The position numbers were made by a program, and so were the translations under genes. Positions 28,843 to 57,472 of a DNA stretch of 64,000 nt are shown here, one piece after another. A model generated the notes under the pieces. It was not told where the DNA came from and ran no database searches. It saw only the letters and a program-made list of their open reading frames with translations. Every line of letters begins with the position of its first letter. The first letter of the stretch is position 1. The stretch is from Acidobacteriota bacterium (lineage in GTDB: Bacteria > Acidobacteriota > Terriglobia > Terriglobales > Acidobacteriaceae): the NCBI GenBank assembly GCA_003225055.1, contig QIAU01000135.1:62001-126000 (forward strand). The letters run 5' to 3'.

Positions 28843-29121
28843 ATGAACAAAGCCGATCTCGTTGACAGAATCGCAGCCGGCGCCGGCATCAGTAAGGCCG
28901 CGGCCGGAACTGCCATTGACACGGCGGTGGACAGCATTACTGCCACCCTGAGAAAAGGAGATCGGGTAGCCCTGATTGGTTTCGGCACTTTCTCGGTTTC
29001 GCAGAGAAAGGCGCGGAACGGGCGCAACCCGCAAACCGGCGCAACCATCAAGATTGCCGCCCGCAAAGTGGCAAAATTCACTCCCGGGGCCGAGCTCAAG
29101 AAAGCAGTTAACAAAAAGTAG
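28843..29121 (+). CDS. hup: HU-family DNA-binding protein
   Basis: 92-aa nucleoid protein. [20 protein letters not shown] at the start, then [20 protein letters not shown] with the beta-arm [15 protein letters not shown], and the C-terminal helix region [21 protein letters not shown] precedes the ATG by 5-6 nt. A strong terminator follows the stop by about 20 nt, and a group II intron begins directly after it. Confidence 0.96.
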
Positions 29122-29142: not shown

Positions 29143-29169
29143 CGGCAGGGCGTCGGCCCTGCCGTTTTT
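29143..29169 (+). terminator. Rho-independent terminator of hup
   Basis: CGGCAGGGC and GCCCTGCCG form a perfect 9-bp stem with loop GTCG, followed by TTTTT at 29165-29169. It is the apparent homing target of the group IIC intron that begins at 29174. Confidence 0.92.
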
Positions 29170-29173
29170 CTTG

Positions 29174-29824
29174 GTGTGCCGAGCATGTCCGACAGCTCAG
29201 AGGTGTAAGTTCTCTACCCAATGATGGAGGTGAAGGGTTAGCAAAACGCAAGGGTGAAATAACACCCGCCGCGAGGCGGGGCCTCAAAGAAACGTGGAGC
29301 AAAGACGCGAGCCGATGAACAAGAACCGGATATGAGGCCTAGGGTGAGGGGCGAGCGAACCAATGATTGCGAAGCCCATATCCATCAAGTGCACTGGTGG
29401 TAAATCCGGCGGTTGTGCGTTGAAGGCGGTCGAACTTACCTCAGGAGATCTGCGGCAGGTCACAAAATGTGACTGAGGGTGAAGCGATTCACTCTGACCG
29501 TGCCGCAGAAAGTCATCAGCAAACGGTGGAGTACTCCCTGAAGAGCGGAGGAAGACCCGAACGGTACCCCGCCCAGGGGAATAAAGGGAAAGGCAAGTAA
29601 GCAGCGCGATCTCAGGGACGACAGACAAGCCAATATTGCTTGGCCTTCCGGAGGCAAGTAGGGGTGAAGCCCCGAGGGGCATCCGGGAAGGGACCGAATC
29701 GCCTCCTGGCGACGCACTATGCAGAATGCTTGGCTACTTCACACCTAGCTCAACCCGCCGTATGCGGACCCGCATGTACGGTGGTGAGGGAGGGGAGGAC
29801 GGCTACCGTCCCCCCTATCCCGAT
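29174..29824 (+). ncRNA. ORF-less group IIC intron
   Basis: The 5' end GTGTGCCGAGCATG and the following AGTTCTC, GTTAGC...ACGCAAGGGTG and ATATGAGGCCTAGG match the order seen in the Oceanobacillus iheyensis IIC intron. Domain V at 29755-29784 (CCGCCGTATGCGG then CCGCATGTACGGTGG) carries the CGC triad of class C. Domain VI (about 29788-29824) ends CCTATCCCGAT. At about 650 nt, there is no room for a maturase and no reverse-transcriptase motif in any frame. It lies a few bases after the hup terminator, the typical IIC insertion site. If active, it needs a maturase supplied in trans. Confidence 0.85.
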
Positions 29825-29995
29825 TGTGCCGATTGCCCGCAATGCGAAGAGTGTGGCGCGGTCGCCCTCGTCCGGGAAGGAGACTTGGAAGATGTAACGC
29901 GGACAGTCTTGTCCGCGAAACCACGGATAGAGGTTTGTAAATGGGCGCTCTCGCCCGCGAACGCATAGTGCCGCTGGCTTTAACTTGGAAGCCCT
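29825..29995. other. 3' flank of the intron, with palindromic repeat
   Basis: Contains CGCGGAC-AGTCTT-GTCCGCG (29898-29917), 7-bp arms, the same kind of palindrome as at 31217-31238, and GGGCGCTCTCGCCCGCG at about 29943. No gene recognised. Confidence 0.5.
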
Positions 29996-54374: not shown

Positions 54375-54758
54375 AATACGGTCCTAGAGCTGCGCGTTGG
54401 ACGCTCTTTAACGTAGCCGGGTTGCGGAATCTGCCTCGTTTGCCCCCCCGAGATGCTTTTGCCTCGCACGCCGGAGCGGATCCAAGCGCGCGCGACTTAT
54501 TTGACTAAGTACAAGGTCAAAAAGCTGTTGAGTTTACAAAACTTTACCTTGGCCAGCCTGCATGCCAGGCGCCATCAATCAACAGCCAAGCGCGCAAGAA
54601 AAATACTATCATCCTGCTTCGCGAGCGGGACGAGCAGCGGGTCGGTGAGCCCAACCCGGTGCATTTCTGCCCTCCTGCTTGTCGGGACAAGGATCTCTCT
54701 AAGAATTTTTGGTGTGACACGCCGGCGGTGTGGTAAACGCGTCGGTCTGGAGGTCCCC

Positions 54759-55340
54759 ATGGTGATCGCATCGGAATTAAAGGCAGGCATGGCCATCCGG
54801 GTGGAAGGAGAGATCTACGAAGTCCTGGAAGCGGAATCCAAAGCCGGGACCGCGAAGCTAGGAGGAGTAGTAAAGACTAAGCTGCGCAACGTGCACAGCG
54901 GGCGCATGTGGGAGCCCCATTTCCGGCCTCAGGAGCGGATGGAAGACCTCGAAGTGGAGCAGCGCCTGATGGAGTTTCTCTTTTCTGGCGGAGACTCCTG
55001 CACCTTCATGGACCCGCGCAGCTTCGAACAAATCGAGATCCCTAGGGCCATGGTTGGACGGGCAGAAAAATTCTTGCCGGCGGGTATGCAATTGCTGGTG
55101 GAGTTTTTTGAGGGCCAAGCGATCAACGTTGTTTTTCCGGATATCGTCGAGGCGCGGGTGGCCCATACCGCGCCGCCTGCGCATTCGCAACAAGACAGCA
55201 CCTGGAAAGAAGCCACTCTCGACAATGGCTTGGAGATTCGGGTGCCTTTGTTTATTGGTCCCGGAGAAGTTGTGCGTGTGGACTTGAGAACCGGCCGCTA
55301 TGTGGAACGTACCCGGGGTGAACGCAGGCGCAGCGCCTGA
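54759..55340 (+). CDS. Divergent elongation factor P-like protein
   Basis: 193 aa from ATG 54759, with GGAGG 5 nt upstream; the longer open frame to the left has no EF-P character. Three-domain EF-P: MVIASELKAGMAIRVEGEIY, GGDSCTFMDPRSFEQIEIPR and FIGPGEVVRVDLRTGRYVER. The tip loop that normally reads PGKG(Q/S)A is SKAGTAKLGGVV. A Lys still sits at the position that aligns with Lys34. EF-P rescues ribosomes at polyproline; this copy looks like a second, specialised paralog. No modification enzyme gene is adjacent. Confidence 0.85.
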   Translation: MVIASELKAGMAIRVEGEIYEVLEAESKAGTAKLGGVVKTKLRNVHSGRMWEPHFRPQERMEDLEVEQRLMEFLFSGGDSCTFMDPRSFEQIEIPRAMVGRAEKFLPAGMQLLVEFFEGQAINVVFPDIVEARVAHTAPPAHSQQDSTWKEATLDNGLEIRVPLFIGPGEVVRVDLRTGRYVERTRGERRRSA

Positions 55341-55439
55341 TTCATGGGGCGACGGGGCTTCGATCCGCCTGAGTCAAAGTCCCTAGGCCTAGGCGTCGAG
55401 ACCGATCCACCGAGGGGGCTGAAAATATCTGAGCAACGC

Positions 55440-56494
55440 CTACTGTATTTTGCCCACCACAGTTTGTGCCTTGGAGACCAAGTCAGGCGGCAACGTCGCA
55501 TTACCCATATTGCGGGCCATCACTTGACCATCCTGCAAGGCCCAGTCAAGGAAATGTCCCAGCGCATGGTTTCGTTCGGAGGGAACCACCGGAATAGGGA
55601 GATAAAGCCAGGTGAAGCTGCTGACCGGGTAGGAATCCTTACCCGGGCCGTAGGTAATCGATGTTCCGAAATCTGCAGGAGATCGACTCTTCTACGGCAG
55701 CGCAGGCAGCCGCGATGCTGGCGGAGGTAGCTTTGATGAAGTGACCAGCCGCATTCTGCACCTTGCCATAGCCGATGTCGGAGCGCCGTGCGAAGTCCAC
55801 CTCGACATAGCCGATAGCGCCCGCAGTGGCAGCTACTTTTTCCACCATGTCCTCACCGCGGTTGGGGTCGGCTCCCAACCGCCATTTGGGGGAAGGACTC
55901 TTGCCTATCTTGGAGCGAAACTCGGAACTTGTCTTCGAAAGAAAGTCGCTGAATATGTAATTGGAGCCCCTGCCCGGCGTGCGGTGGACAATAGCGATCG
56001 GCAGATCGGGGAGGGTGATCCCAGGGTTCAACTTCGCGATCCGCGGATCTTTCCAGCTCTTAATGTTTCCCAAGAAGATATTCGCCAGTAGTTCGCCGGA
56101 GAAGTTGAGTTCCGGACCGCCGGCCAGGTTGTAAATCGGCACGATTCCCACCAGCACGGTGGGAATTTGCCCGAGCGTCACCTTGGCGCTGCGTGTCTGC
56201 TCACGGGTTAGTGGCACTTCTCCCCCTCCAAAATCTCCGCATCCTTCGCTGACTTGTTTCATGCTCTCGGAAGTGCCTAAAGGAAGTGCCTAAAGGAAGA
56301 TAGCGCACCTGAATATTGGGATTCTTTCGGTTGAATTCGTCGATCCATGCCCCGAATATGAGGTGGTTCGGCACATTCGATCCAGACCCGACGATTGAGA
56401 CGCGGGTTTGAGCCAACAGCGGAGTTGCCGGCAAGGGCTCGATTACGATCGCGGCGAGGCAGAGCGAAGCGAGCACTGCTTTCGAACGTGGCAT
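55440..56494 (-). pseudogene. pstS: PstS-like phosphate-binding protein, broken by a 13-bp duplication
   Basis: A signal peptide and TRVSIVGSGSNVPNHLIFGA, WIDEFNRKNP and VRYLPLGTS open the gene. Two tandem copies of GGAAGTGCCTAAA (56269-56281, 56282-56294) then shift the frame. Removing one restores RYLPLGTSESMKQVSEGCGD and FGGGEVPLT. The second frame runs through ELLANIFLGNIKSWKDPRIA and GAIGYVEVDFA. A further 1-nt shift near 55680 leads to ADFGTSITYGPGKDSYPVSS and ends GNATLPPDLVSKAQTVVGKI. It otherwise aligns fully with PstS, so inactivation is recent. Confidence 0.88.
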
Positions 56495-56653
56495 TAGCAT
56501 CTCCTTGGCGATGGATGCGACCAGATCGGTTTGTCTTTGCCAGTAAGTTTAATCCCCTTCAGCTTCTGACAACACTCGTACTCTCCGCGACAAGTAACTC
56601 TGCTGGTTATCCAAAACGTCGCATTCCAAAACCTCACATTTTGACGAGTGCCC

Positions 56654-57472
56654 ATGAACGCTTGTAAGATGCGCCAGCATTTCCGCTCCAGCATCTTGCA
56701 ATTCAGAAATCCAATCTTTCTTTTTCTGGCCGCTGTGATTGCCGGCATGCTGAATTCGGTTGCCGGTGGCGGCAGCTTCGTTTCCTTCCCCGCGCTGCTG
56801 TTTGCCGGTTTGCCGGCCGTGCAGGCGAACGCGACCAACACAGTGGCTCTGTGGCCCGGCTTGGCCGCCAGCAGTCTCGCCTATCTGAAGAGACTGGACG
56901 TTCCCCGACGACTCCTAGTTCCTTTGCTGGTGACCAGCATCATCGGCGGCCTGAGCGGCGGGTTGCTGCTGATTAAAACCCCGCAACACACCTTCCTGCA
57001 CCTGGTCCCATGGCTCTTGCTGGCTGGGACACTCATGTTCGCCTTTGGCCATAGGTTTCGCGCCTTGGCAGGAAAAACCGCCAGCGATCATGACCTGCGC
57101 CAGACAAGCTGGCGGACGATTACGTTCATAGCGGGCCTGGAGTTGCTGGTAGGGATCTACGGCGGATATTTCGGCGCCGGCATTGGGTTCATTACCTTAG
57201 GCATGTTGGCGGCCCTCGGCATGCGCAATATCCATGCCATGAACGCGCTCAGAACGCTGCTTGCCGTGGTCATCAACGTGGCGGCGGTGGCCACCTTCAT
57301 CGCGGCCGGCGCTGTGTTGTGGCGGCAATGCCTCGTCATGATCGCCGGTTCGCTCACCGGCGGCTGGTTCGGTGCGCACTACTCCCAGAGAGCCGATCCT
57401 AAGGTGATGCGTTACCTGGTAATCGCCGTGGGGTTGGCAATGAGTGCTTATTTCTTTGCTACCGTCCGCTAA
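56654..57472 (+). CDS. TauE/SafE-family (TSUP) membrane permease
   Basis: 272 aa with about eight transmembrane helices. The two family repeats are FLAAVIAGMLNSVAGGGSFV with NATNTVALWPG in the first half, and LVGIYGGYFGAGIGFITLGM with NALRTLLAVVINVAA in the second. Members export sulfite, sulfoacetate or other organosulfur anions; the substrate is not evident. The ATG at 56654 is chosen over a GTG two codons earlier. Divergent from the pstS remnant. Confidence 0.88.
   Translation: MNACKMRQHFRSSILQFRNPIFLFLAAVIAGMLNSVAGGGSFVSFPALLFAGLPAVQANATNTVALWPGLAASSLAYLKRLDVPRRLLVPLLVTSIIGGLSGGLLLIKTPQHTFLHLVPWLLLAGTLMFAFGHRFRALAGKTASDHDLRQTSWRTITFIAGLELLVGIYGGYFGAGIGFITLGMLAALGMRNIHAMNALRTLLAVVINVAAVATFIAAGAVLWRQCLVMIAGSLTGGWFGAHYSQRADPKVMRYLVIAVGLAMSAYFFATVR

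Follow-up and report, generated by a model that had tools for sequence, protein, structure and literature searches.

An intron of group IIC type without an ORF beside the hup terminator of a Terriglobales genome, and a lineage of ORF-less relatives that evidently spread after the loss of the ORF

A bacterial group II intron of IIC type that lacks an ORF was confirmed by sequence comparison downstream of the hup terminator in the MAG of a soil acidobacterium of the Terriglobales (G000; 7.4 Mb, 98.7% complete). It is 651 nt in size and occupies positions 29174 to 29824 (+ strand) of the window, the whole 64-kb stretch of DNA that was analysed. We consider it about 80% probable that the element is a non-autonomous group IIC-type retrointron, from a lineage that would have lost its ORF once and then spread, with help in trans from the maturase of an ORF-bearing sister.

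The identification was based on Rfam covariance models, covariation and intron ends similar to those of 15 other copies. The domain I core at 29265–29435 matched the full length (1–170) of RF02001, group-II-D1D4-3 (118.8 bits, E 8.9e-24), and domains V–VI matched RF00029 at 29753–29824 (43.7 bits, E 2.8e-5); both matches exceeded the Rfam gathering scores and lay on the + strand in order, and no other Rfam match was found in the 64-kb window. Domain V (29754–29785, + strand) contains a CGC triad and has lost its closing A-U pair next to an 8-nt deletion. Domain VI (29787–29822, + strand) has a candidate branch-point A at 29817. The GTGTG and GAT termini together with this A agree with the group II pattern of 5' GUGYG, 3' AY and a bulged A in domain VI; the intron closes with CCTATCCCGAT, an A being placed 8 nt from its end. 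The triad and both ends had been pointed out in a preliminary description of this DNA, and the intron does start 4 nt past the hup T-run, as claimed there, with CTTG between the last T (29169) and GTGTG at 29174. Of the span then given, 29143–29824, the end stands, but 29143 is the start of the terminator hairpin and the intron proper begins at 29174. The 'complete-looking' ribozyme of about 650 nt was right in its length and in the presence of both Rfam halves, but the copy has lesions that its relatives lack.

No RT-sized frame was found within 29174–29824, the longest ORF being one of 132 aa on the reverse strand, and the intron aligns with an ORF-bearing relative once the RT of the latter is removed, in agreement with the earlier claim that a reverse-transcriptase frame is missing. 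The features of group IIC found here are insertion after a terminator hairpin, the CGC triad in domain V and a class-C RT in the lineage; an RT ORF within the copy is lacking, having been deleted, which is still compatible with IIC because the division into IIA–IIC applies whether or not an intron has an IEP (PMC4424553).

Besides the Rfam models, covariance folding had been named as a check, and both bear the assignment out. Across 14 aligned relatives, the 5' 345 nt has 104 predicted pairs, of which 44 show changes on both sides that preserve pairing, and in domains V–VI (21 sequences) this holds for 10 of 28 pairs; the counts are biased towards the predicted structure because the pairs were predicted from the same alignments, whereas the Rfam match is independent. 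The intron strand also folded better than shuffled sequences (z −4.1; none of 20 shuffles equalled it).

The terminator belongs to the hup gene (28843–29121, + strand), encoding a 92-aa HU-family DNA-binding protein (Pfam PF00216, 114.5 bits). This intrinsic terminator (29143–29169, + strand) is a IIC-type target and comprises a hairpin at 29143–29164, CGGCAGGGC-GTCG-GCCCTGCCG, with a 9-bp stem and a GTCG loop, followed by a run of five T at 29165–29169; the 45 nt upstream of the intron fold with −25.9 kcal/mol. Terminator targeting by IIC introns is well known (PMC8919778; PMC4424553), and the preliminary description had invoked it for hup; a GC-rich hairpin likewise lies upstream in all 16 copies examined with both ends. 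At the end of the 5' exon, TTCTTG (29168–29173, + strand) is a candidate IBS1 with six of six Watson-Crick pairs to CAAGAA in a domain I loop (29320–29325, + strand), where ACAAGAACC is retained in most relatives; this EBS1 is treated as a candidate because the EBS1–IBS1 match is only partial in other copies. The first 3' exon base, T at 29825 (+ strand), is a candidate IBS3, and T occupies position +1 in 13 of the 16 copies (nominal binomial p 4e-6 against a 25% background, the copies not being fully independent).

The hup copy interrupts no gene, being located between the terminator and the next gene. The hup orthologue of G001, a genome of the same genus, has the terminator without the intron; the insertion is therefore younger than the split from G001, or the intron was lost in G001. 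Directly behind the intron, TGTGCCGA (29825–29832, + strand) is the same as intron bases 2–9 and may be what is left of an earlier intron at the hup site. The G111 copy is also followed by a 5' intron stub, longer and in the same register from intron base 2 (L131). With a length of only 8 bases, the repeat at hup does no more than suggest that a second intron inserted one base into an earlier one, a possible tandem insertion at one terminator.

A search of the genome for a IIC maturase, as proposed earlier, identified a sister intron of 1978 nt on contig C209 of the same MAG (54756–56733; L034), with 87% identity to the hup intron over the first 346 nt and 86% over domains V–VI. Its RT is intact, a class-C maturase of 412 codons in which RVT_1 and GIIM are the sole Pfam domains, and the best solved relative is the GsI-IIC RT (E 1.4e-147). 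A related IEP in the same genome is a mark of trans-mobilised ORF-less introns, and C209 provides one; its maturase is a concrete candidate for a trans-acting helper of the hup copy. The site of the sister is atypical (a hairpin within a DUF5615-family reading frame, without a T-run and with C at +1), and no clear EBS1 match was found at the C209 insertion site. Because of this site the sister's own splicing is doubtful although the RT is intact, and its expression is likewise uncertain. The bases flanking its insertion repeat about 9 bp (ACTCAAGAC). In three other hosts of ORF-less copies (G394, G037 and G111), no RT nearer to that of C209 than 31–39% was found, which speaks against the trans-assisted reading, although these MAGs are incomplete (74–84%). 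Several further group II RTs, some of them broken and some at contig ends, were seen on contigs C243, C215, C294, C281, C138, C55 and C20 of G000, and the copy numbers of repeated introns in this MAG are probably underestimated. Contig C44 (51091–51139; L037) carries a 49-nt intron 5' fragment right after a cspA-thermoregulator match (48 bits, below gathering).

Compared with C209, the ORF deletion extends from about 20 nt upstream of the RT start codon to just before the stop, TAG being kept. In the hup copy the scar lies at 29735–29748 (+ strand) and ends at the TAG aligned with the relative's RT stop codon; seven other ORF-less copies in the tree are alike. The scar reads GGCTA..CACA..TAGCTCAACCCGCCG, or differs little from it, in G394, G319, G037, G010 and G111, all from the family of the hup copy's host, and in G530 and G536, both from another family. 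In a tree of 24 ribozymes, nine ORF-less copies including that at hup formed one clade (support 100/99) adjoining C209 and two other ORF-bearing introns; the scar can be read in eight of the nine rows, all of which share it. The ninth copy, in G242, is divided over two contigs, one part being in the tree and the other (L132) bearing the scar. The preliminary description had proposed looking for further ORF-less copies in the genome; the wider comparison yielded a lineage of nine with a single deletion, from nine genomes that represent six genera in two families.

Wherever flanks were readable, the clade copies occupied different sites, so that a shared deletion at different sites, another mark of trans-mobilised ORF-less introns, was found here. 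The copies in G394 and G319 are identical over 730 nt and follow two unrelated terminators in two species; both MAGs carry isolate codes of one project (JOPF) and misbinning is possible, but it would still leave two separate insertion sites. Given one clade, one scar, sites that differ from copy to copy and a pair of identical copies at unrelated sites, the ORF-less form evidently spread after the ORF was lost, presumably by mobilisation in trans. Horizontal transfer of intron-carrying DNA could explain some of the spread between genera but does not explain why the insertion sites differ. When the exact junction was searched in a GTDB-based collection, six records came up, every one from an Acidobacteriota MAG. 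The exact junction pattern was not found in viral contigs, and plasmid records gave partial matches only, the two that were opened (Bradyrhizobium, Cupriavidus) being ORF-bearing introns. Outer-flank searches for the G394 and G319 copies gave weak matches elsewhere (64–75%) and no clean empty site. The G010 and G242 copies are cut on the 5' side, which fits incomplete reverse transcription, though later deletion or assembly could also be the cause. In G536, a same-clade ORF-less intron (L224, about 1706–2913) has its domain V split by about 1.2 kb of other sequence.

The possibility that each copy lost its ORF independently after insertion is very improbable, and for the lineage of the hup copy it is already contradicted by the single clade and the common scar. 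Losses may nevertheless recur, as G225/G153 and G157/G301:C72/G049:C23/G223 are ORF-less with central sequences unlike those of the hup lineage. Because of these different centres the ORF was probably lost more than once in the wider intron family, the separation of the two sets from each other being weakly supported. Additional ORF-less introns of IIC type whose central sequences differ were observed (L164, L174, L175, L166, L173 and L115); every one is situated after a hairpin, and three have internal deletions. A pair swap in domain VI (GGC/GCC to GGG/CCC) was considered as a correlate of ORF loss and dropped, being present in the RT-remnant L162 and absent in some ORF-less copies.

The state of the hup copy is a separate matter. 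At columns at least 95% conserved in the other copies it has 16 changes (12 substitutions and 4 gaps) vs 2 each in G394 and C209, and 11 of 132 consensus pairs are non-standard vs 3 in G394 and 2 in C209. The loss of the domain V closing pair is accompanied by the 8-nt deletion at the base of this domain, and a segment that relatives keep as GTCAGCAGAGGGC has changed and inserted bases here, giving GTCATCAGCAAACGG. These lesions give not quite an even chance that what came in as a member of this intron family has since become a dead, non-splicing pseudo-intron. Yet 92% of its pairs still form, and the domain V–VI core, triad, branch A, both ends, IBS1–EBS1 and IBS3 are retained; such decay would moreover bear on the condition of this copy and not on the identity of the family. 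We infer that the copy is drifting, probably with reduced or no activity, and it may no longer splice well; given its intergenic place behind the hup terminator, leaving it unspliced would cost the host nothing. Maturase-free self-splicing, as in C.te.I1 of C. tetani, is unlikely: the ribozyme is compact and folds well and there is a precedent (PMC4424553), but the copy carries lesions and shares its genome with a close ORF-bearing sister whose maturase is intact, as is usual where bacterial introns lack an ORF.

Under the preferred reading of a trans-assisted retrointron, splicing and mobilisation of the ORF-less copies being deduced from comparison of sequences, a C209-like ancestor carrying a class-C RT/maturase ORF would have lost that ORF once, leaving the shared scar, and the shortened intron would then have dispersed, still ORF-less, to many sites and several genera. 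Readthrough of a terminator would allow transcription of the intron, and the maturase of an ORF-bearing sister would bind the ORF-less RNA and aid splicing. The resulting RNP would reverse-splice into single-stranded DNA beside another terminator hairpin, the target being chosen by the hairpin, EBS1–IBS1 pairing and T at IBS3, and the sister's RT would also copy the inserted intron. The hup copy could have come by the same route, perhaps into a site already holding an intron, and would now be drifting outside any gene.

Insertion after a terminator hairpin, the CGC triad and relatives of the RT without an endonuclease domain are shared with group IIC introns with a class-C RT such as B.h.I1 of B. 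halodurans and GsI-IIC, which differ from the hup copy in that the latter has no RT ORF. C.te.I1 of C. tetani is also an ORF-less bacterial group II intron; it self-splices in a genome without a related IEP (PMC4424553), whereas the genome of the hup copy has an ORF-bearing sister. Trans mobilisation of ORF-less introns sharing one deletion is established in T. elongatus (PMC2882425), where TeI3a-t likewise arose by one deletion with common break-points and then spread. Sister IEPs were shown to act in trans on TeI3a-t, whereas here the trans helper is a candidate, and its 17 copies belong to another intron family within one genome, while the present copies are of IIC type, follow terminators and are scattered over genera and two families. 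In a limited search of open-access literature, no ORF-less IIC lineage across genera was found to have been described; the case is new for IIC introns and extends over genera, with a precedent from Thermosynechococcus in another intron family.

A review from 2015 described ORF-less bacterial group II introns as rare and regarded introns without an IEP as having lost retromobility (PMC4424553); the present IIC-type lineage contrasts with this view in that it was evidently still mobile after ORF loss and occurs in several genera. On balance we favour, with some reserve, a non-autonomous IIC retrointron lineage of long standing, akin to SINEs or MITEs, which would have persisted and moved across Terriglobales genera and families by parasitising the maturases of ORF-bearing IIC introns, with further ORF-less lineages having arisen independently among its relatives. 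If confirmed, it would be a bacterial, terminator-targeting counterpart of non-autonomous retroelements. It would also make it possible to test how readily a single maturase can serve a range of introns, an often proposed step towards the spliceosome.
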